From Balneola sp. (lineage in GTDB: Bacteria > Bacteroidota > Rhodothermia > Balneolales > Balneolaceae), in assembly GCA_002694685.1 (NCBI GenBank), contig NZMW01000004.1, positions 124,001-188,000 on the forward strand: 64,000 bases of DNA, written 5' to 3'. Positions 1-46,405 of this stretch are shown in pieces; the first letter of the stretch is position 1, and every line of letters begins with the position of its first letter. A program made the translations under genes and the position numbers. Below the pieces are notes generated by a model. That model saw only the letters and a list, made by a program, of their open reading frames with translations, did no database searches and was not told the DNA's origin.

Positions 1-3000
1 GCAGATATTGAGTTTGCCCAAACACTTCGTCCAGAGAAGAAGCTCCAATTTTTGAAAGCTCTCGGCGAACATCTTCGGCCAGATACTTAAGGGTGTCAAC
101 TACATGATCTTTATGACCTTTATACTTGTCTTTGAATTTCTGATCGTGAGTAGCAATACCTGTCGGGCAGGTGTTCTTCTCACAAATGCGGGCCATGATA
201 CAGCCTTCAGCTATAAGCAGGAGCTTGCCAAAATCAAATTCCTCAGCTCCTAAAATGGTCCCCAATACAATATCTTTTCCACACGACATTCCGCCATCTG
301 TTCTGAGTATAACATGATCACGTAGGTCATTTTCTACCAATGACTGATGAACTTCAGGCAGTCCAATTTCCCATGGCAGCCCGGCATGCTTCATCGAACT
401 CAACGATGCCGCTCCGGTTCCCCCTTCGCCACCGGAAACCTGAATGATATCGGCTCCGGCTTTAGCAACACCAACGGCAATGGTTCCGATGTTAACTCCG
501 GAAACTAATTTCACACTGACTTTTCCGCCGGGGTGAAGTTGCTTGAGGTCGTGAATAAGCTGCTTTAAATCCTCAATACTATAAATGTCATGCAAAGGAG
601 GAGGAGAAATGAGGTCAAACCCCGGATTTGCAAAACGAGCACGGGCAATATCTTCAGTCACTTTGATGCCCATTAGCTGCCCGCCTTCACCAGGCTTGGC
701 TCCCTGGCAGACTTTAATCTGAATCTCATCACCAGCTATTAAATACTCTGCATTAACCCCAAAACGTCCGGATGCAATCTGCTTAACAGAAGCAGAAATT
801 CCTTCCTTGAAGTAATAAGGGTTTTCACCACCCTCGCCGCTATTGCAGCGTCCTCCGATTTCTTTCATCGCGAGGAAAATATCTCGCTGTGCTTCTGCAC
901 TGATGGCTCCAAACGACATCGCACCTGATCCAAATCGCTGAAGAATATGGTCGATGGAATCCATTTTATCCAGCTCTAAAGAAGTGTCGGATTTCTTGGT
1001 ATCCAGAAGATGGCGCAATGCAACCGGTTCATCATCATGCCCGGCTTTAAGGTATTCGTCGAAGAGCTTCATATCTGTTAAGTCGAGCTCTTTGTCACGA
1101 ACTAATTCATGAATAGCTTTTGATCGTGAACTCGTCATGGAGTGTTTTTCCCCCATTTTACCACGAGCATGTTCTTTATACTGATAGGTTTTCAGCGGCT
1201 TCATTTCACTTAAATCTTCGCCATCTAAGTGTTTGGTGCGTTCGAGAATCAGTTCGCCAATTTGATCGAGTGTAATTCCTCCGATCGGACTTTGAATGCC
1301 TGGAAAGAAATCTTTGATCACTTTTTTGTCTAAACCAACGGCTGAAAACAGCTTGGCACTTTGATAACTCCGAACAACAGAGATACCGCATTTCGCCATA
1401 ATCTTTAACAGTCCCTGTTCCAGCGCATGCAGCAGATTCTTCTCTTTGGTGTCAGAATCTAAGTCTTTAAGTGCGCGATTGTCATCATTTCGGGCAACGT
1501 CCAGAGCCATATAAGGACAAACTGCATAAGCTCCGAATCCAATAATGGCTGCTGCATGATGAGTGTTTTTCACCTCTCCGGAATCAATGACTACAGAGGC
1601 ATTCAGCCGCAACCCTTCGTCATTTAAATTATTGACGACGGCTCTAAGCGCTAAAAGGGATGGAATGGCAGGATATTCATAGGAAGCATCCCGATCACTT
1701 AGAATAATGATGCTGTGTCCTTTTTCGGCAGCTTTAACCGCTTCATCGGCTATTTCTTTCAGTTTTGCTTTGAAACCCACGACACCATGAGTTCTTTTAA
1801 AAGTCATGGATAAACGGACAGGTACAATTCGTTCTTGAGTCAGGTCTCCACCAAGCAAAGAGGTTAAATGATCCATTTGTGAAAGACTCAGAAATGGACT
1901 TTTTAGCAGAAATGCCGGTGCCGGGGGAATCAATTCCTTCGGCTCAAATATATTTGGCTTCTTGCCGAGGTGTGTTTCCAAATCCGTCACCACTTGCTCG
2001 CGGATATAATCTAACGGTGGATTTGTAACCTGTGAAAAGTTCTGGTAGAAATGGTCAAAGAAGGAACGCGGTTCGGTTGAAAGAACAGCGAGTCGGGCGG
2101 TATCTCCCATAGAACCAACGGGCTCTTTACCCTCTGAAGCCATTGGATAAATCACTTTCTTTAGCTCTTCATCGGTATAGCTGAAAATGGGAAGTTTTTC
2201 TAAGTAGGATTCCTTCTGTTCGCCTACTGTTTCAGGAATAGGGATGAGCCGGGCATCAAATTTAGCATCTTTGTTTTCGCGGGAATGACTTGGATCACGG
2301 AAGTGAACTTCTCCTGAACTCAAATCCAGAGTAACTCCGCGGCCAGCAAATAAGGTTCCTTTAGCATCAATAATAGACTGATCAATTTCAAAAGTACCTG
2401 CTTCAGAGGAAAGGTAGAAATGATCCTCGGTTCGGGCCCACCGGGCAGGGCGGAATCCATTTCGATCAAGGCGGGCGCCGATGGTATATCCATTTGCGTA
2501 TGAGATGAAAGCCGGGCCGTCCCAAGGTTCCATTGCTCGGCTCCAGAATTTGTAAAACTCGTTATTCAGATTAGCAGGCGGAACCATCAACGCTAAAATA
2601 TCCTCAACGTTTGGAACTCCACTTCTATAGCGCATAGCTTCAACCATTTCGTTGAAGCTGCCGGAGTCACTGATTCCTTTGCGGGTTAGAAGCTCATATT
2701 TTTCAGCTCCAATCATTTTTTCGCGGGATTTAGCCCATGACCGGTTTCCGGCTATCGTATTAATTTCACCATTATGGCCAATCAATCGAAAGGGCTGAAC
2801 TTTGTCCCAGGATGTACGCGTGTTGGTACTAAAGCGACGGTGGAATAAGGTAAAGCGAGTTTTGTATTTCGGGTTCTTTAAATCCGGATAGAATTCTTCC
2901 AGAGCTTCTGCCTTACAAAGTCCTTTATAAACGATAGTCTTAGCAGAAAGAGAGGTGAAAAATAATGCCCCTTCCAGTTTCTGGGCGTACAGCTTTGATT

Positions 3001-3484
3001 TGGTGAGCTGCTTAGCTTGGTATAACAGTTTATCAAAAGAGAGATCAGTACGGGATCTTTCAGGTCGCTCAATTACAACCTGCTTAATAACAGGAAGCAT
3101 GACTTTCGCCTCCTTGCCAAGTACATCGGTATTGACAGGGACATCGCGGTACTCAAGTATTTTCAACCCAAAGAAGTCAAACGTTTTTTCAAAGATGCTC
3201 AGTCCTTTAGTCTGCTTAACAGCATCGTTCGTCAAGAAAAGAGTAGCAATGGCTACGGTGTCTTTTTCGTAGCCAAACATATCGAATGGGATATCCGTCA
3301 TGATACCGGCACCGTCACCTGTAACTCCATCGGCGCCACAAGCCCCGCGGTGTTCTACACATTTTAGTGCATGCAAGCCACTCTTTAAATGCTCGTTTGC
3401 AAATACTCCTTTTCTGCTGGCTATAAAACCCACACCACATGCGGATTTTTCTTCTCCAGTGTAACTTAAATTTATTCGGTTCAT
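1..3484 (-). CDS. gltB: Glutamate synthase large subunit (GltB), 3' end cut by window edge
   Basis: Makes glutamate from glutamine and 2-oxoglutarate in the cytosol, normally with the GltD subunit, which is not in view. About 1,161 codons of a roughly 1,500-residue family are present; the protein runs off the window at base 1. I start it at the ATG ending at 3484, which places the catalytic amidotransferase cysteine at about residue 16 (SACGVGF) after a short propeptide. The glutaminase domain continues with RGACGADG. Near the window edge the 3Fe-4S cluster cysteines are clear in CIMARICEKNTCPTG, and the FMN-domain segment SGGEGGTGAA lies just before them. I read the minus strand in one frame with no stop seen. 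GltD may lie beyond base 1. Assignment is secure. Confidence 0.95.
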   Translation of the reverse strand, partial: MNRINLSYTGEEKSACGVGFIASRKGVFANEHLKSGLHALKCVEHRGACGADGVTGDGAGIMTDIPFDMFGYEKDTVAIATLFLTNDAVKQTKGLSIFEKTFDFFGLKILEYRDVPVNTDVLGKEAKVMLPVIKQVVIERPERSRTDLSFDKLLYQAKQLTKSKLYAQKLEGALFFTSLSAKTIVYKGLCKAEALEEFYPDLKNPKYKTRFTLFHRRFSTNTRTSWDKVQPFRLIGHNGEINTIAGNRSWAKSREKMIGAEKYELLTRKGISDSGSFNEMVEAMRYRSGVPNVEDILALMVPPANLNNEFYKFWSRAMEPWDGPAFISYANGYTIGARLDRNGFRPARWARTEDHFYLSSEAGTFEIDQSIIDAKGTLFAGRGVTLDLSSGEVHFRDPSHSRENKDAKFDARLIPIPETVGEQKESYLEKLPIFSYTDEELKKVIYPMASEGKEPVGSMGDTARLAVLSTEPRSFFDHFYQNFSQVTNPPLDYIREQVVTDLETHLGKKPNIFEPKELIPPAPAFLLKSPFLSLSQMDHLTSLLGGDLTQERIVPVRLSMTFKRTHGVVGFKAKLKEIADEAVKAAEKGHSIIILSDRDASYEYPAIPSLLALRAVVNNLNDEGLRLNASVVIDSGEVKNTHHAAAIIGFGAYAVCPYMALDVARNDDNRALKDLDSDTKEKNLLHALEQGLLKIMAKCGISVVRSYQSAKLFSAVGLDKKVIKDFFPGIQSPIGGITLDQIGELILERTKHLDGEDLSEMKPLKTYQYKEHARGKMGEKHSMTSSRSKAIHELVRDKELDLTDMKLFDEYLKAGHDDEPVALRHLLDTKKSDTSLELDKMDSIDHILQRFGSGAMSFGAISAEAQRDIFLAMKEIGGRCNSGEGGENPYYFKEGISASVKQIASGRFGVNAEYLIAGDEIQIKVCQGAKPGEGGQLMGIKVTEDIARARFANPGFDLISPPPLHDIYSIEDLKQLIHDLKQLHPGGKVSVKLVSGVNIGTIAVGVAKAGADIIQVSGGEGGTGAASLSSMKHAGLPWEIGLPEVHQSLVENDLRDHVILRTDGGMSCGKDIVLGTILGAEEFDFGKLLLIAEGCIMARICEKNTCPTGIATHDQKFKDKYKGHKDHVVDTLKYLAEDVRRELSKIGASSLDEVFGQTQYL

Positions 3485-3805
3485 GATAGTTTGTTCTTCG
3501 ATGGTTAGGCGAGATGAGAACACACAAAAAGCACAATTTTTAGCATTTTGTCAAATTTAGGAAGGTGTAAAAATCTGTTTTTAAAGTTATTTAAAGTGTG
3601 ATTTTGGTTAAATTCAGATACTTGGACAAGGTGAATTTAACGCTTAATCATTATTGAGGAGTTAGAAAAGCGCTTACAAGAGAAAGATCGATACAACCTA
3701 AATTATTTAGGTTAATGGAGAAATAAATTTATTTGTTTCAGGAATGGGTGGTAGAAAAAACGGCGTTTTAAAGAAATAACACCTAATAAAGGTAAGGCTC
3801 TCAAA
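3485..3805. other. Intergenic region between gltB start and hisF end (321 bp)
   Basis: No convincing ORF or RNA gene. Reading toward gltB on the minus strand there is a TTTGACA at 3549-3555 followed after about 17 bases by a T-rich CTTTTTG, a plausible but weak gltB promoter. The hisF-proximal half is A/T rich and I see no clear terminator in it. Confidence 0.4.
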
Positions 3806-4567
3806 TTATTCAATGTATCGGACTTCGATATCAGCAGCCCGCATCTGCTTCTTTAGCTCACGGATCTCAATTTCTTTAAAGTGGAAAATGCTTGCAGCTA
3901 ATACAGCATCAGCATTGCCACTTTTTACAGCATCAACACAGTGCTGAATAGTACCTGCACCGCCACTTGCAATAACAGGAATATTAACGAGGCTGTTTAT
4001 CTTGGAGAGGATGTCGATATCGAAGCCGCTCTTTGTGCCATCACGGTCCATGCTGGTGAGAAGAATTTCTCCGGCACCTCGTTCTTCTACTTCCAGCATC
4101 CATTCGATAGCATCAAGGCCGGTATCTTCAGTTCCGCCTTTCACATAAACATTCCAGCTTGAGCCATTTCTTTTGGCGTCAACAGCTGCAACAATTGCCT
4201 GTGCCCCAAAAGCTGCAGATGCTTGATTAATCAGGTCTGGATTTTTGACAATACTGCTGTTCAGAGAAACTTTATCGGCGCCTGATTTAAGTAACTCTTC
4301 AATTTCATCCACCGCTTTAATTCCGCCACCTACTGTAAAGGGTATATTGATTTCAGCGGCAATTCTCTTGACGAGTTGAACGAGCGTTTTACGTTTTTCG
4401 AGCGTAGCTGTGATGTCAAGGAATACGAGTTCATCGGCTCCCTCATCGCTGTATCTTTTAGCTAATTCAACGGGGTCACCGGCATCACGAAGTCCTTCAA
4501 AATTTACACCTTTAACAGTACGCCCGTTTTTAATATCCAGGCAGGGGATAATTCTTTTAGTGAGCAT
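3806..4567 (-). CDS. hisF: Imidazole glycerol phosphate synthase cyclase subunit HisF
   Basis: Cyclase half of the HisFH complex of histidine biosynthesis: it takes ammonia from HisH and PRFAR to give imidazole glycerol phosphate and AICAR. 253 residues, the usual length. The (beta/alpha)8 barrel carries the catalytic Asp11 in PCLDIKNG and the second catalytic Asp at about residue 130 in AAVDAKRNG; phosphate-binding loops GGGI and SGGAG are present. HisH is not adjacent. HisA lies 2.3 kb away on the same strand, separated by two opposite-strand genes, so the his genes here do not form a single operon. Confidence 0.97.
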
Positions 4568-4734
4568 ATAATAATTTAGCTATTGAAGAGACCTTAAATG
4601 TTAACTCTTTAAATAATTTTAGCTACTTATAATATAGAAAATAATCAGTAATGGATTTTTGAATGCCTGCAAAAAATAGTTTTTAATTGTGCATTAAGTC
4701 AGAAATAATTAGCTCTGATTCTTAGTTTAGAAAT

Positions 4735-5562
4735 ATGAAATACAGAATCACTCCCTTAGATCAATCAGCAAAAGAGATTGTAGCTCACGTCATTCAAAGC
4801 GATCAGTCTCAGCTGCTAATTCCGCCAAGATTTAAAGACCTTGAAATGAATATCCCTTCTTTAAAAAAGACAGAAAAGCATATTGGGCTATTTTCAAGCG
4901 GGACAACAGGGACACCGAAGTGTATCTGGAATTCGTTAGAGCGTTTAAAGCGGAATGCATTATTTACGGCCGATGTATTTTTGGTTAAGCCCAAGCATAA
5001 ATTACTGATCTTAGCCGCTCCCTGGCATGTGGCTGGACTAAGCTGGGCGTTAATGGCCGAACAGTTAGGGTGTGAGTATGAATTCATCACCACAAAAAAA
5101 GGAGATGCTGAAAACTGGCTTGAAGCTGTAAAAGAAATAAAGCCGGATTTCTTACTTACCGTACCGGCTGTACTAAGAGCTTTATATAAGGAGGATTGGT
5201 TCGTGCCCAACATTGTATTTGGAGGCTATTCGGTTGAACCGGAAGATTTCGAGTCCCTAACAACACACTGTGAAACCATGATTCAGGGATATGGACAAAC
5301 TGAAGCGGGCGGATTGATTGCTGCTCGTAGCTGGGGCAGTTCGGAAAATATTGGAGAATTGGATCATTTATGCTGTGGGAAACCTATTGAGGGGGTACAT
5401 TTGAGGTGTGAAGGAAGTGCAGAAGAACCGACCCAAATTTTCATCCAGTCAAAAACGGCATTCACACCAAAAGAGTACCATTCTGGTGATTTGGGATTTA
5501 AAGATGGTAATGAAAACATATATATTTTGGGGAGAGCTGAAAAAGAAGTCAGAGAAAAATAG
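4735..5562 (+). CDS. Shortened AMP-binding (ANL superfamily) enzyme, MenE-like
   Basis: Adenylate-forming enzyme of the acyl-CoA ligase superfamily. The ATP-binding loop FSSGTTGTPK (about residues 53-62), the YGQTEAGG motif (about 185-192) and the SGDLGF aspartate motif are intact, and the layout resembles the short O-succinylbenzoate-CoA ligases (MenE) of Bacteroidetes. It stops 12 residues after the hinge motif ILGRAEKE, so the whole C-terminal lid domain of about 100 residues, including the catalytic lysine, is missing. The 57 bases between the stop and the serpin ATG encode nothing like that domain. No other menaquinone genes are near. It could be a decayed menE, or a half-enzyme that only binds or adenylates acids. 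Substrate unknown. Confidence 0.75.
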   Translation: MKYRITPLDQSAKEIVAHVIQSDQSQLLIPPRFKDLEMNIPSLKKTEKHIGLFSSGTTGTPKCIWNSLERLKRNALFTADVFLVKPKHKLLILAAPWHVAGLSWALMAEQLGCEYEFITTKKGDAENWLEAVKEIKPDFLLTVPAVLRALYKEDWFVPNIVFGGYSVEPEDFESLTTHCETMIQGYGQTEAGGLIAARSWGSSENIGELDHLCCGKPIEGVHLRCEGSAEEPTQIFIQSKTAFTPKEYHSGDLGFKDGNENIYILGRAEKEVREK

Positions 5563-5619
5563 TGAGTAATTTATTTACTCAGTTAGCATTTTGAAGCCGA
5601 ATCAAACTTGAGGAGAAAC

Positions 5620-6861
5620 ATGAGAGCCAAGTATTTAATCACTTTTATCGCAGCAATACTAATAGCAAGTGTCTGGGGATGTACTTCCAATGTATCGGGA
5701 CCGGACTTGAATGGTGAGTTGCCTCGAAGCTTGTCAACTTCTGAACAAGAGCTTGTTGAAAATGGTCGTTCATTTGCATTCGATGTTTTTAAAAATACGG
5801 TTGCAGCAGATAGTGCCGAGAATATTTTTATTTCTCCACTTAGTATTTCAGTAGCACTTGGGATGACCATGAATGGTGCAAATGGAGAAACCTACAATCA
5901 AATGCGGAATACCCTGAATTTTGAAGGGTTATCTCAGGATGAAATTAATGCCGGTTACCAAAGTTTGATAAGGCTGCTTGTTGATGCAGATCCGAAAGTG
6001 AAAATGCAAATTGCTAATTCTGTTTGGAGTAAAAAGGGGTTTGCAGTGGATAAGGAGTTCACTAATCAACTTGAAGAATATTTTGATGCACAAGTTAGTG
6101 AATTGGATTTCAATGACCCTGAATCGGCTAAGATCATCAACGACTGGGTTTCAGGAAATACCAATGGATTGATTGAAAAAATTATTGAAGGAAGAATCCC
6201 TAAGAATTTAGTGATGTACCTGATCAATGCCATTTACTTCCAGGGTGACTGGATGAATAAGTTCGATAAAGACGACACAGAAGAAAAAGCATTTAGCTTG
6301 GAAGAAGGGGGAGAGAAAATGGTTGATATGATGTCTCAGAAACATACTTTCAACAGTTACTCTGATGATGTAGTGGAGCTAATAGATCTTCCATATGGGG
6401 ATAGTCTTTACACAATGACCGTCATGATGCCAGCTGATTCAGATAAGGCTTTGTCAGAATTTATTGCTCAGGATTTAACCAGACAAAATTTCGATAATTG
6501 GATAGGGCAGGTCAGAAATAGGAATATGATTCTAGAGCTACCCAGGTTTGAAATGGAATATGAAATCAAGATGAATGATATCTTGATTTCAATGGGAATG
6601 GAAGATTTATTTAGCTCAGGTGAGGCTGATCTTAGCGGTATAAATGCTGATGTGCAGTTGTTTGTAAATGAAGTGAAGCATAAAACTTTCGTATCTGTAG
6701 ATGAAAAAGGAACCGAAGCTGCTGCTGTAACTTCTGTTGGTGTGTTTGTAACTTCAGTACCTCCATCTTTCAGAGCTGACCGACCATTTGTATTCTTAAT
6801 CAGAGAGCATAATAGCGATGCTATCCTATTTATGGGCAAAGTTAATAACCCGGAAAGCTAA
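5620..6861 (+). CDS. Serpin-family protease inhibitor, predicted lipoprotein
   Basis: Serine protease inhibitor fold of normal length (413 residues). I use the ATG at 5620, preceded by GAGGAG, rather than an upstream in-frame TTG. The N-terminus MRAKYLITFIAAILIASVWGC looks like a lipoprotein signal ending at Cys21. The reactive-loop hinge EKGTEAAAVT is of the inhibitory type (small residues, no proline or charge), and the C-terminal serpin signature DRPFVFLIREH follows. Aligned with alpha-1-antitrypsin from memory, the scissile bond falls at Thr-Ser in VFVTSVPP, suggesting elastase-like targets. Known relatives include miropin of Tannerella forsythia. Likely protects the cell surface from host, prey or self proteases. 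Family assignment is secure; the target is inference. Confidence 0.95.
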   Translation: MRAKYLITFIAAILIASVWGCTSNVSGPDLNGELPRSLSTSEQELVENGRSFAFDVFKNTVAADSAENIFISPLSISVALGMTMNGANGETYNQMRNTLNFEGLSQDEINAGYQSLIRLLVDADPKVKMQIANSVWSKKGFAVDKEFTNQLEEYFDAQVSELDFNDPESAKIINDWVSGNTNGLIEKIIEGRIPKNLVMYLINAIYFQGDWMNKFDKDDTEEKAFSLEEGGEKMVDMMSQKHTFNSYSDDVVELIDLPYGDSLYTMTVMMPADSDKALSEFIAQDLTRQNFDNWIGQVRNRNMILELPRFEMEYEIKMNDILISMGMEDLFSSGEADLSGINADVQLFVNEVKHKTFVSVDEKGTEAAAVTSVGVFVTSVPPSFRADRPFVFLIREHNSDAILFMGKVNNPES

Positions 6862-41556: not shown

Positions 41557-43965
41557 TTACTTCAACTCCACAACCGTACAACCAGCACCGCCCCGTTCAA
41601 TAGGAGCCGTCTCTACACTTTTCACATCACTGCGGGTATTTAGGTACGACTGAATCTGGCTGCGCAGAATGCCATCGCCTTTGCCGTGAATAATATCTAC
41701 TTGATTCATATTTCGGTACACCGCCCGATCAATATATTGGGTGACTTCATGAAGAGCATCCTCCGTTCTCATTCCCCGAACTTCGAGAGATGGTTTTACG
41801 AGTCCGGTCGTCAAGTCATTATCACCAACCATGACGGATGAGCGAGCTTTTGATTTCTTCTGCTTTGGCTTATCAACTTTCACCAGGTTTTTGAACTTGG
41901 TTTTAAGACGAAGTCCACCGGCCTGAACCACCACATTTTTCCCGTTGATTTCAACCAGTTCCCCGGTCGTATTTCCATCTTTAAATCGTACATGATCACC
42001 CTTCTGTGGAGGATCATCGGAGATCTGTTCCCGCTCTTCTTTCTTGTCTTCAATTTCTTCCAGGGACCGGTCAATCTCTTCTTTCTCCTGATCAACTTCC
42101 TTGCGAATTTCCTTGATCTCGTCTTTATCTGCCCGGTTCTGTTCAACAATTTTCTGCACAGCTTGTTCAACCCGCTGATTGGCAGAATCCATGATGGATT
42201 TCGCTTCTTTCAGGGCTTTTTCCCGAATTTTCTCCTTGTCTTTTTCGATAGCCTGAATCTTATTCTCGTACTTCTTTTGTTCTGATTCTGCTTTAGCCTG
42301 AAGTTTGGAATATTTGTCTTTGAGGTCTTCTGCTTGCTGGGATTTAGTTTCCAGTTCGGTGATCAGCGACTCCATCTTGTCCTTGGCTTCACCTAACAGC
42401 ACCCGTGATCTTTTGAGTACACCTTTATCAAGATTCATTCGCTCGGCAATTTCAAAAGCATAGCTACTGCCGGGAATTCCCTTTTTGAATTTGTAGGTAG
42501 GAGAGAGTGAAGCCTGATCAAACTCCATAGAACCGTTAACCGCTTTGGGGTGCTCGTGAGCAAATACTTTTAAGGAACCATGGTGAGTGGTAACAATAAT
42601 CTTTCCATTTTTATCTAATAGCTTCTCAATAAAAGACTGAAATAATGCACCACCTTCTTCGGGATCGGTTCCGGCAGCGGCTTCGTCGATAAGCACTAAA
42701 CTTCCAGGTTCGAATTCCTCTATGGTTTCCCGCATCCATTTTAATCGGGATGAAAAAGTACTCAAGTCATTCTCTATGGACTGGTCATCACCAAGATCAA
42801 CAAACAGACCGGAGAAAATCGGGATTTCAGAAGTTGGGTCGGCCGGAACGCCATAGCCGGATTGAATCATAAGTGCCATCAAGCCAACGGTTTTCATAGC
42901 AACTGATTTCCCCCCTGCGTTAGGCCCTGTGATCATGAGGCATTGTTCATCGGCTTCCAGTTTCAGAAAAAGCGGGATGATGGTTTCCCGGTCTTCCTTC
43001 TTTTTGATATTCAGATTCTTCAGCCTGAGAATAGGATTGTAGGCCTCTTTAACACTCAGATATTGGGTTTTTGATATGATGGGGATTTCTCCATCCAGTT
43101 TCTGAGTAAGCTTAGCCTTGGCATAAATCACGTCAATTTCAGCCAAACACGAGATATTTTGGTCTATATATTCTGAATTTTGACGAACATGCTGGGTGAG
43201 CTCTCTGAGTATACGTTCAATCTCGCGCTGTTCTTCAGCTTCAAACTGACGTATTTCATTATTCAGATTGAGTGCTTCAACAGGTTCTATGTATACCGTT
43301 TGCCCACTGGCAGAAACGTCATGTACAAAGCCCTGCACTTTTCGCTTGAATTCTGACTGAATGGGAATAACCATCCGTCCATTGCGAATAGTTGGGCCTT
43401 CATCCGAAGCCATTCCATCTTTATTCGCATCCTTCATTGAGCGGTTGATGGTAGTTCGCAAATCGTTTTTACGCTTGTTGAGTTTTTTGCGGATGGCTCG
43501 CAGTTCCGGGCTGGCATCATCCCGTAAATCCCCATACTCAGTGACCTTATCCTTAATACTTCGCTCCAACTCCTTTGTGGGGATCAGTCCTTCGGAAACT
43601 TTAGTGAGCCGGGGTAGTTGGTCTGCCCGGGCTTTGAAGAATTTTTTCACGTTTCGTGAGATGGAGCAAACCTTCAAAATATCCACAAAAGCAGGCAGTG
43701 GGATAATACTTCCTTCAGCTTTGGAGGCACTTAGATATTCGCGCACTTCTGGAAACTCGCCCAGCGGAAAAGGATCGGGGGAGATGATGACTTCGAGCAT
43801 CTCTTTGGTCTGTTCCGTAAGCAGCTGCACTCGCTTTGGGTTTGAAGAGGGAGAGAGAGACTCCATAAACTCTTCAGAGCGTACCGATTGTGTTAATTCA
43901 AGCGTTGCTTTTCGAATCTGATCAAAGCCGAGTTTATCTAAAAGGGTATCAGGGTAAAGTTTCAT
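41557..43965 (-). CDS. mutS2: Endonuclease MutS2
   Basis: 802 residues. MutS-type core and clamp in the first 330 residues, Walker A GPNAGGKSVAMKT near 347, Walker B VLIDEAAAGTDPEEGG, then a long coiled coil (about 515-640, rich in E and K), a KOW-like segment (KGDHVRFKDGNTTGELVEI) and a C-terminal Smr nuclease domain with VRGMRTEDAL and IIHGKGDGILR. Known to suppress homologous recombination and to act on collided ribosomes in some bacteria. Convergent with the GMC gene, 6 bases apart. Confidence 0.96.
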   Translation of the reverse strand: MKLYPDTLLDKLGFDQIRKATLELTQSVRSEEFMESLSPSSNPKRVQLLTEQTKEMLEVIISPDPFPLGEFPEVREYLSASKAEGSIIPLPAFVDILKVCSISRNVKKFFKARADQLPRLTKVSEGLIPTKELERSIKDKVTEYGDLRDDASPELRAIRKKLNKRKNDLRTTINRSMKDANKDGMASDEGPTIRNGRMVIPIQSEFKRKVQGFVHDVSASGQTVYIEPVEALNLNNEIRQFEAEEQREIERILRELTQHVRQNSEYIDQNISCLAEIDVIYAKAKLTQKLDGEIPIISKTQYLSVKEAYNPILRLKNLNIKKKEDRETIIPLFLKLEADEQCLMITGPNAGGKSVAMKTVGLMALMIQSGYGVPADPTSEIPIFSGLFVDLGDDQSIENDLSTFSSRLKWMRETIEEFEPGSLVLIDEAAAGTDPEEGGALFQSFIEKLLDKNGKIIVTTHHGSLKVFAHEHPKAVNGSMEFDQASLSPTYKFKKGIPGSSYAFEIAERMNLDKGVLKRSRVLLGEAKDKMESLITELETKSQQAEDLKDKYSKLQAKAESEQKKYENKIQAIEKDKEKIREKALKEAKSIMDSANQRVEQAVQKIVEQNRADKDEIKEIRKEVDQEKEEIDRSLEEIEDKKEEREQISDDPPQKGDHVRFKDGNTTGELVEINGKNVVVQAGGLRLKTKFKNLVKVDKPKQKKSKARSSVMVGDNDLTTGLVKPSLEVRGMRTEDALHEVTQYIDRAVYRNMNQVDIIHGKGDGILRSQIQSYLNTRSDVKSVETAPIERGGAGCTVVELK

Positions 43966-44077
43966 TCAGGAAGTTAGTTGCCATTTATGCGCTCAACAAA
44001 GATACGGGGAATATGATTGTATTTCGAAGATGAATTAGGAGATCTTTTTCTCCAAATCTAAACTCAAGCTACTTCCT

Positions 44078-44210
44078 CTTGTTCATTTTGGCTTGACCCA
44101 AAACAAACCAAAAACTCAGGAAAACACGAAGATTGCAGGATTAATGAGATATGAATAGATCTAGCTCACGTAAGTCAAGTAGCGTTGATAGTAGTTTTTT
44201 ACGTGTTTTC
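44078..44210. repeat. 133-bp direct repeat, left copy
   Basis: Same orientation as the copy at 45314-45446, offset exactly 1,236 bp without gaps and about 90% identical by eye. Starts CTTGTTCATTTTGGCTTGAC and ends ACGTGTTTTC. It contains a short CACGTAA/TTACGTG inverted pair. The opening resembles intergenic elements often seen in Bacteroidetes. Confidence 0.93.
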
Positions 44211-44262
44211 AGGAGGGCTATTAAAAATCTACTATTGGTACTTAATATCTGATTTAAAGAAT

Positions 44263-44292
44263 CTCGTCCCCAATGAAGAGCTCGGGGACGAG
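44263..44292 (-). terminator. Terminator after the HEXXH lipoprotein gene
   Basis: CTCGTCCCC/GGGGACGAG stem with a 12-base loop, 20 bases past the minus-strand stop; the minus strand continues ATTCTTTAAAT, a weak T run. Confidence 0.65.
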
Positions 44293-44312
44293 TTCAAAAT
44301 AAAGAAGAAGTA

Positions 44313-45047
44313 TTACTCAGATCTTCGATCAATAATTTCATCTAATGTTGGTCTCTCACTTTGATCTAGTACGTTCTTCACAAACTTAAATTGAAAATAT
44401 CCATAGTGGTAGGCATTAGAACCTAACTCATTATAGTTTTCATTAAAATATTCTTCTTCAGAAACACCTTCTGGTGTTGGATTCTCTAAAAAATTGGTTA
44501 AAGCATTTAATTTAGGCTCAATTGATGCTAAAAAATCACGCCCTTCCTGACTACTTTCTAAATAAGCGATAGTAATTTCATTTGCTTCGATTTCGCTCAT
44601 ATATCTATTTGGACTTAGCTGGCCATCCATTTCAGATTGCGCCCAATGCGCGAACTCATGATAATAGAAGAAGGTGTTAAAGAACGTTTCAAAAAATTCT
44701 TCAACATCCATATCAGATGCGTCAGCAAAGTCCTGCATTACTACTAACATCTCACTTGAAAGGTCGTCATACCAAGGGACGTAAACCGCATTACTAATTT
44801 GATTATAGTAGATGAGTGCATTCGAATTTGAACTAACAAAAACGATAGGGATTTCGCCAGTCTGGACATCTTGGTCTTCCATCATTGCTTTAAGTTCGTT
44901 GGCCATGGTTTTGCCTTTCTCAACAAGCTGTTGCTTTGGAGTTAGTTCTTCTGGGACATCTTCGACTTCTGTAGAGTCTCCCGTGCTATTTGATGAACAA
45001 GAAATGAATAGTAAAATTAGTATTGATAATATTGCTGTACCCTTCAT
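44313..45047 (-). CDS. Lipoprotein with HEXXH zinc-metallopeptidase motif
   Basis: 244 residues. Signal peptide with lipobox LFISC (Cys17), then an acidic Ser/Thr-rich linker (SSNSTGDSTEVEDVPEEL). A HEFAH motif at residues 130-134 (FFYYHEFAHWAQSEMDG) is the HEXXH zinc site, and Glu residues in SEIEANEITIAYLE, about 20 residues later, could be the third ligand, as in gluzincins. No family recognised. It lies alone between two 133-bp direct repeats and has its own terminator. Probably an outer-membrane-anchored peptidase or a relic of one; activity is inferred from the motif only. Confidence 0.8.
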   Translation of the reverse strand: MKGTAILSILILLFISCSSNSTGDSTEVEDVPEELTPKQQLVEKGKTMANELKAMMEDQDVQTGEIPIVFVSSNSNALIYYNQISNAVYVPWYDDLSSEMLVVMQDFADASDMDVEEFFETFFNTFFYYHEFAHWAQSEMDGQLSPNRYMSEIEANEITIAYLESSQEGRDFLASIEPKLNALTNFLENPTPEGVSEEEYFNENYNELGSNAYHYGYFQFKFVKNVLDQSERPTLDEIIDRRSE

Positions 45048-45619
45048 TATAATATTGTTTTTATTATAAGTTGCGCCTACGATATTTAAATTAGGAGAAA
45101 AAATAAACCGGATTAAAAAATTTTAATCCCATGTTATTTCCTGTTAGCGTGGTGTATTTAGTAATGAAAATGAGCCCCTTTGAATCGTAAAGATGTCGAA
45201 AAAGAGTGGCTGAATCTAGACAAGGTTAAACCTAGTTTTTAAGCTCCTGCTTCACCTTCTCCATAATAAATCACCAGAAGTATTTTGCTAGATCTAGAAG
45301 TCGTGCCAATTCACTTGTTCATTTTGGCTTGACCCAAAACGAACCAAAAACTCAAGAAAACACGAAGATGTCAGTATTAATGAGCTGTGAATGAATCCAG
45401 CTCACGTAGGTCAAGTAGCGTTGATAGGTGTTTTTAACGTGTTTTCGGATTTAAGCCCGTTACAAGTTAGCAGCAGGTGTTGTTTGAATGAGCGATAATG
45501 TCATCCTTTGCACAAGCGAGGCGATTTCAATCCCTCGCGGGGGTGTATAGGGCAAGCTTTTTATTTTACATCCATCCAAAATGCTCCTACATTTCAGTTC
45601 AACAAAACAAGAGAAGCTT
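45048..45619. other. Intergenic region between the HEXXH lipoprotein and phzF (572 bp)
   Basis: No credible ORF. Holds the right 133-bp direct repeat (45314-45446). Other parts are A/T-rich with a short GCGAGG/CCTCGC pairing near 45515-45537. The lipoprotein promoter must lie in the first 150 bases. Confidence 0.65.
45314..45446. repeat. 133-bp direct repeat, right copy
   Basis: Partner of 44078-44210; 13 to 15 substitutions and no gaps. Neither copy has an ORF. Confidence 0.93.
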
Positions 45620-46405
45620 ATGAAATTACCGATTTACCAAGCCGACGCTTTTACTTCTGAACTATTTGGCGGAAATCCAGCCGCAGTAATTCCGCTTGAG
45701 GAGTGGCTACCCGACGGCGTAATGCAAAATATCGCTGCTGAAAATAATCTCTCTGAGACGGCTTTCTTTGTTGAAGAAGGGGACAGCTTTAGATTACGCT
45801 GGTTCACTCCGGCAGTGGAAGTGGATTTATGCGGACACGCCACTTTAGCCACATCACACGTTTTATTTGAAGAATTAGGCTATGAGCAACCCACAATTAA
45901 CTTTAACACCCTAAGCGGTGTTTTGTCGGTAGAAAAAAGTGGAGACCGCCTGGTTATGAACTTCCCCGCCGTTGAGCCATTACAGAATGAAGCACCAGCC
46001 ATTTTATTTCAAGCTTTAGGGGTAGAGCGAACATCGGAAGTGTATAAGTCTGACGACTACATGGTAGTGTTAAATTCTGAACAGGAAGTTGCAAACCTGG
46101 ATCCTGACTTTCGGATGTTGAATGAAGTAGATGCCAGGGGAATTATAGTCACGGCGCCAGGTGATGAAGTTGACTTTGTCTCCCGATTTTTTGCACCACA
46201 GGCCGGAATAGATGAAGATCCCGTGACGGGTTCGGCTCACACCAAAACAACTCCCTACTGGAGCAGGAAGTTGAAGAAAGATAAACTTTCAGCTCGCCAG
46301 ATTTCAAAACGTGGGGGAGAGCTTATTTGTGAGATGAAAGGAGATCGGGTCGAAATCTCAGGGGAAGCAGTGACTTATATGAAAGGGGAGATTACTCTTG
46401 CTTGA
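45620..46405 (+). CDS. PhzF-family isomerase/epimerase
   Basis: 261 residues from the ATG at 45620; a longer start at 45581 adds 13 poorly conserved residues. Two-lobed diaminopimelate-epimerase-like fold: IYQADAFTSELFGGNPAAVI at the N-terminus, the catalytic Glu in NNLSETAFF, DLCGHATLATSHV, and GIDEDPVTGSAHTKTTPYW in the second lobe. Unlike DapF, no catalytic cysteine pair. No phenazine genes are around, so the substrate is unknown. Overlaps the next gene by 8 bases, an operon pair. Confidence 0.92.
   Translation: MKLPIYQADAFTSELFGGNPAAVIPLEEWLPDGVMQNIAAENNLSETAFFVEEGDSFRLRWFTPAVEVDLCGHATLATSHVLFEELGYEQPTINFNTLSGVLSVEKSGDRLVMNFPAVEPLQNEAPAILFQALGVERTSEVYKSDDYMVVLNSEQEVANLDPDFRMLNEVDARGIIVTAPGDEVDFVSRFFAPQAGIDEDPVTGSAHTKTTPYWSRKLKKDKLSARQISKRGGELICEMKGDRVEISGEAVTYMKGEITLA

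Follow-up and report, generated by a model that had tools for sequence, protein, structure and literature searches.

A pair of 133-bp direct repeats, here called R1-L and R1-R, brackets a lipoprotein gene in the window, the 64,000-nt stretch of a Balneola sp. genome analysed here. We read this arrangement through one joint account, to which we give a probability of about 0.6: a labile slot with a lipoprotein gene as its older occupant, a late insertion of the left repeat, a loss of the gene in a related species in association with a different repeat (R2), and a gluzincin-type lipoprotein as the product. The two R1 copies would be members of a short, dispersed, structured and non-autonomous element, and the bracket that they form would have arisen incidentally, when a repeat inserted next to an accessory gene. 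Today the bracket would serve as a substrate for direct-repeat deletion.

R1-L (44078–44210) and R1-R (45314–45446) both lie on the plus strand, are 133 nt each and align without gaps at 89% identity (119/133 bases), with a start-to-start distance of 1236 and a gap of 1103 bp. This bears out the two same-orientation, ungapped repeats of about 90% identity described in the original prediction, and the second copy is recovered at E 1.4e-45 in a search of the whole 3.95-Mb genome, which places it beyond chance. R1-L has the compact form of the element, with a 5′ core hairpin followed by the arms GAAAACACG and CGTGTTTTC; R1-R has a right flank in common with the single copy of a congener, genome G029. 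The right ends of the pair are sharp and the left ends less so, and neither terminal inverted repeats nor target duplications are seen by eye around the two copies. Single-strand DNA folding gives z-scores of -0.64 and -2.03, unconvincing alone. The genome-wide count that had been proposed finds no further full copy in the 3.95-Mb genome, where the single other match at E ≤ 0.001 is a 34-bp match to the core.

The longest open reading frame between the repeats is a minus-strand gene of 244 aa (44313–45047) for an HExxH lipoprotein of gluzincin-like appearance, with its HEFAH motif at residues 130–134 and an orthologue in the congener G026. A terminator-like hairpin lies 3′ of it on the same strand (44263–44292), so both the gene and the terminator predicted between the repeats are in place, and no transposase gene is found among the open reading frames of this interval. 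The left anchor of the locus is a minus-strand gene at 41557–43965, which we take to be mutS2-like, and the right anchor is a plus-strand PhzF-like gene (PF02567, 45581–46405); a plus-strand TauE/SafE-like permease gene (PF01925, 46398–47210) is conserved beside phzF. The G+C of the stretch with the lipoprotein gene is about 0.36, against 0.43–0.46 in its neighbours, a hint of foreign origin at some time.

Whole mutS2 is found in 9 of the 10 genus genomes, the draft G027 showing weaker MutS-like matches alone. In seven of the nine, phzF follows mutS2 (the window genome, G000, together with G021, G022, G023, G025, G026 and G029). G024 has mutS2 with other neighbours; the G028 contig stops about 1.3 kb past mutS2, and no locus genes were found there. 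The contents of the mutS2–phzF slot vary among the seven. A TonB-dependent receptor gene (product 665–679 aa) is present in five (G021, G022, G023, G025 and G026), the lipoprotein gene in two (G000 and G026), as expected of a gene predicted to come and go among relatives, and R1 in two, with two copies in G000 and one in G029. The G026 slot combines the lipoprotein gene and the receptor gene without R1, its lipoprotein gene lying in the same place and orientation as in G000, and the G029 slot contains one R1 and no lipoprotein gene.

The mutS2 tree has the form (G000,(G029,(G026,G023))), with support of 96/98 and 100/100, and a tree of the receptor from five genomes is consistent with vertical descent. 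Placed on the mutS2 tree, the distribution of the lipoprotein gene makes it most simply ancestral to the four species; with four species compared, two independent gains at one place are a possible alternative. A search for a close TonB-dependent receptor elsewhere in the G000 and G029 genomes found none, the best matches being partial and at most 34% identical, and no receptor remnant was detected in the intergenic stretches of G000 (window 45047–45314) and G029 (best E 0.38). The slot thus appears to be a labile accessory site: the ancestor of G000, G029, G026 and G023 would have held both the lipoprotein gene and the receptor gene, the receptor gene would have been lost in G000 and G029, and the lipoprotein gene in G029 and G023. 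The locus offers a natural series of species for following one accessory gene's loss beside different direct repeats.

Against this background R1-R would be the older copy, shared with G029, and R1-L would probably have been added later in the G000 lineage, beside a lipoprotein gene that was already there. The G029 copy has 112 of 133 bases in common with R1-L and 113 of 133 with R1-R, and a later origin of R1-L is suggested because the two window copies are nearer to each other (119/133) than to the G029 copy; conversion between R1-L and R1-R would look the same. Over 25 nt on the right, the G029 copy has a flank that matches R1-R (13.0; 0/2000 shuffles) and does not match R1-L (4.5; 301/2000 shuffles). 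On the left, the nearest 40 nt also favour R1-R (12.0; 2/2000) over R1-L (5.5; 339/2000), whereas over 60 nt the comparison turns to R1-L (21.5, against 9.5 for R1-R), the outer part being sequence upstream of mutS2. The left 40 nt of R1-L and R1-R are themselves alike beyond chance (9.5; 8/2000 shuffles), and the left flank is therefore not decisive on a deletion between the two.

Such a deletion had been foreseen in the original prediction, and G029, with a single repeat and the lipoprotein gene gone, has the general appearance of one. Recombination between two R1 copies would also leave an outer left flank like that of R1-L and a right flank like that of R1-R, as seen here. We still consider this origin of the G029 state unlikely. 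The outer left flank belongs to the sequence upstream of mutS2, which is expected after any deletion, and the repeat itself is about equidistant from both window copies: at the 14 sites where R1-L and R1-R differ, it is R-like at 6, L-like at 5 and like neither at 3. The closer likeness of R1-L and R1-R to each other speaks for a later R1-L, and the receptor gene is gone in G029 too, so that an ancestor would have had to hold the receptor gene between R1 copies or to lose it separately. Of the predicted deletion, the single repeat and the missing gene hold, the flanks and the repeat sequence are not decisive, and the idea as such is plausible. The further suggestion that the gene was captured between two mobile copies fares worse. 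Were the R1 pair the ends of a mobile unit that brought the gene in, the recurrence of R1 elsewhere in the genus, the patchiness of the gene (an orthologue in 2 of 10 genus genomes, G000 and G026) and the low G+C of the stretch would all fit. A gene of a composite element travels with both flanking copies, however, and the G026 orthologue, at the same position and with the same orientation, has no R1 beside it, which makes capture very improbable; the interval between the copies lacks a transposase gene, and the window genome has no other full copies.

Our preferred reading, an older gene beside a later R1-L, assigns repeat-associated loss of the gene to another lineage. The best-supported and clearest instance is that of G023 relative to G026, and it involves R2 and not R1. 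R2 is a different repeat, composed of a GGAAGCCGGAGCTTCC hairpin and a GTCCCC hairpin. In G026 the lipoprotein gene is bracketed by two R2 copies. In the sister genome G023, whose sequence on both sides is 94% identical, there is a single R2 copy and the lipoprotein gene is missing. The two BLAST segments that join these genomes (1–498 to 30–527 and 1389–6099 to 473–5188) overlap on R2, and a crossover inside R2 may lie behind the loss, although the G023 copy is no clean left/right hybrid of the two G026 copies. Eight of the 10 genus genomes have R2-like matches (E ≤ 0.01). The terminator-like hairpin of the window has a weak likeness to the GTCCCC half of R2 (29 bp, 83%, E 0.034 against G023) and is not among the R2 matches of the genus search at E ≤ 0.01. 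In G027 (L089, L095; G027:C68:3005–3837) a Y1 transposase gene has R2 double hairpins on both sides, which contain a CGTC-like start; CGTC repeats are reported in one study to flank no such gene (PMC3733652).

The first 40 bases of R1 form a covarying hairpin with a loop, CTTGAN, that can pair with a downstream NTCAAG. Core helix pairs 10–19 and 11–18 are paired in all 22 distinct rows of the alignment, with two and three pair types, and the last loop pair is standard in 18 of the 22 (T-A, C-G, A-T and T-G), the window type having a C-C mismatch. Pair 5–24 counts against the helix, being paired in 5 of 22 rows and mostly an A-C mismatch; the remaining pairs of helix 1 are fixed by the search pattern and are uninformative for covariation. 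Other copies in the genus have the common ends CTTGTTC...GTGTTTTC. For 26 of 36 copies, an arm complementary to the sequence just 3′ of the core is detected (p ≤ 0.05), as judged against a crude two-base block shuffle and with copies that are not independent; 10 of the 36 lie above p 0.05, and one of 37 is too short. Only one copy was kept of any set identical over the 75 bases around the core, and G025 thereby loses three of its four copies, two of them without the 3′ arm. Among the 26, the arm ends at core+130 or 131 in 5, the compact type of the window, at core+184 to 191 in 16 and elsewhere in 5. The arm sequences differ between types and their spacing is usually kept.

In the genus, a strict form of the R1 core is present at 19 copies in 9 of 10 genomes, from 0 to 4 per genome, in keeping with the dispersed repeat that had been predicted, and a reversed control pattern has no match in the same genomes. 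In the class sample 15 of 117 genomes carry the strict core, and all of these fall into three genera of the family. With a looser core, the phylum sample gives 16 genomes out of 394, belonging to five genera: four from the family of the window, and G398, one genome of another family. G398 has nine copies, six of them arranged as three inverted pairs with distances of 186, 303 and 446 bp. In the G398 copies, one pair of the stem that is C-G in the window type is A-T. Three records of a single Parabacteroides distasonis strain (L245–L247) also show the R1 layout, placed immediately downstream of HU genes within repeated modules of HU, smalltalk and amidase genes; these records are labelled plasmids 3, 9 and 78 and may be chromosomal contigs. 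Several copies per genome are found in G063 and G025, and in two cases, G024f/G028b and G026/G023, a pair of species has a copy at a shared position. One G025 contig start (L056:250–9764; G025:C4) has four same-orientation copies within 10 kb, with a short gene, RelE-like by eye, between two of them. At a G024 locus (L061:3811–5967; G024:C6), two copies are each followed by a minus-strand gene, and the two proteins (158 and 147 aa), without a Pfam match, align over about 85 residues as if a unit of R1 plus gene had been duplicated.

The core was not found in viral contigs with exact patterns, nor in phages with the window copy as query. A 36-bp match to the Parabacteroides form of the core hairpin (E 1e-4) lies in the Microviridae genome MH572371.1 (L277:71–106), in an intergenic position beside the replication initiator gene of this single-stranded DNA phage, and the stretch folds far better than its shuffles (z -5.41). 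We treat it as a lead alone, because its loop and downstream partner differ from those of R1. Rfam scans returned no match at E ≤ 5 for window positions 43900–45700, one unrelated weak match alone (E 0.87) for 17 loci and no match for the three Parabacteroides loci. Our literature searches found no relevant paper on R1, and the repeat family is apparently undescribed.

As to the nature of the element, we tentatively entertain, at less than even odds, that R1 represents, in compact form, an undescribed modular structured family present across several branches of Bacteroidota, a mobile single-stranded DNA or RNA unit with its own mobilising enzyme. It would consist of a constant, pseudoknot-like 5′ module of 40 nt, whose loop pairs with NTCAAG, and of 3′ hairpin modules, about 90 or 150 nt long, that can replace one another. 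If this is true, some Bacteroidota genomes contain a structured repeat without a name, in which two interlocked helices at the start are joined to exchangeable hairpins, and the family would give a new handle on short-repeat mobility. No mobilising gene was found: none of 30 Y1 loci has R1 beside it, and the attC-like sites of the genus differ from R1. That R1 is instead a transcribed structured RNA, either a cis element or a small RNA, and not mobile DNA, is in our view doubtful. The covarying hairpin with its downstream pairing, the retention of the arm in 26 of 36 copies and the same-place copies of the two species pairs would suit an RNA. Across the 22 genus and family loci listed, however, gene neighbour and orientation are inconsistent; G063 and G025 carry multiple copies; and in G063 five of the eight copies lie in units of 168–347 bp with both 17-bp terminal inverted repeats (≤ 4 mismatches). 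The last observation recalls MITEs, which R1 resembles as a non-autonomous element in several copies, whereas the window copies have no such termini or target duplications by eye. In the G063 units (L219–L223), R1-like cores lie between inverted ends like GACATTACCCATGTAAT; four of the units are 325–347 bp long, and the 168-bp unit L219 is missing the inner hairpin module.

REP sequences, which go with RAYT transposases, are likewise short, intergenic, palindromic, dispersed and non-coding (PMC3733652; see also PMC6006769, PMC2817692, PMC3116915). R1 differs in its length of 133 to about 190 bp, in its two interlocking helices with a second, longer hairpin, and in its count of 0–4 strict-core copies per genus genome. 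Y1 transposase genes, the mark of REP/RAYT systems, had no R1 beside them at any of 30 loci (L102–L131, about 1.5 kb on each side, E ≤ 0.1), drawn from 58 Y1 matches. An integron origin, with R1 as an attC-like recombination site and the lipoprotein gene as a cassette, is very unlikely. In its favour, an integron integrase is present in 9 of 10 genus genomes, R1 is near attC in size (attC sites of roughly 120–130 bp are also imperfect palindromes), and 2 of 19 strict-core copies lie ≤ 3 kb from an integrase gene or fragment. R1 is by eye without attC-like ends when set beside the attC box consensus, it differs clearly in sequence, on comparison by eye, from the attC-like sites that the genus has in its own integron, a toxin-antitoxin array in G026, and the genes near R1 copies stand in either orientation. 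The identification with attC is accordingly set aside. In that chromosomal integron (L239:1–6140; G026:C1:868000–880000) the integrase adjoins a mostly minus-strand, toxin-antitoxin-like array (by eye), with attC-like repeats between the genes; an integrase of the same family is encoded in G000 (C1:314–1255).

The enclosed gene most likely encodes an exported, lipid-anchored putative zinc hydrolase of the gluzincin type, as its motifs and model would have it. Its N-terminus, MKGTAILSILILLFISCSS, is lipobox-like as read by eye. In an alignment of 54 sequences, F123, H130, E131, H134, E152, N156, P190, Y215 and Q219 are invariant, and HExxH is present in 53 of 53 usable relatives. The original prediction had named H130, H134 and a residue from E152 to E157 as zinc ligands; the two histidines and E152 hold, whereas the invariant acidic residue after HExxH is not E157, and E152 may be the third ligand. 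The AlphaFold2 model (pLDDT 90, pTM 0.83) places HExxH inside a helix (115–141) and E152 early in the next (148–163). A Foldseek search of the PDB with this model gave no match at E ≤ 0.001. A second structural aligner, by whose own caveat a Z below about 13 may reflect a mere shared helical arrangement, ranked puromycin-sensitive aminopeptidase (8sw0) at the top with Z 9.2 (rmsd 4.0 over 171), followed by human TFIID, no peptidase, at Z 7.9; insulin-regulated aminopeptidase (Z 6.8), Zmp1 (3zuk, Z 6.8), jannalysin (4jix, Z 6.5) and collagenase H (4ar1, Z 6.4) were also returned. The peptidases among these rows are, we presume, gluzincins, and together HExxH, the invariant glutamate and the mostly gluzincin peptidases of the top rows make a gluzincin-type zinc protein likely. 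In common with gluzincins (8sw0, 3zuk, 4jix and 4ar1), the protein has HExxH on one helix, an invariant glutamate on the next and a largely helical domain. It differs in that no sequence relation to them was found, and in that it would be a stand-alone, putatively exported domain of about 210 residues.

Searches of Pfam, NCBIfam and PDB sequences gave nothing above cut-off, in agreement with the predicted peptidase of no recognised family; a profile nevertheless recovers relatives. On sequence comparison, the lipoprotein is a divergent member of an unnamed family widespread in Bacteroidota, which the present case opens to testing as zinc hydrolases. The window protein alone as query found no relative in contigs of named genomes, and the profile was needed. 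With it, 74 loci were found in named genomes, including Flavobacterium, Algoriphagus, Pedobacter, Sediminibacterium and other Bacteroidota, as well as three Bipolaricaulota, and relatives were found in 5 further genomes of the 394 in the phylum sample. In the family-level search, 4 of 92 genomes had a match, the window's own included, two of the four being marginal (25% identity, in far longer frames). Between G000 and G026 the lipoproteins are 63% identical, against 90% for mutS2, and the pair is under constraint, with pN 0.23 against a saturated pS of 0.83.
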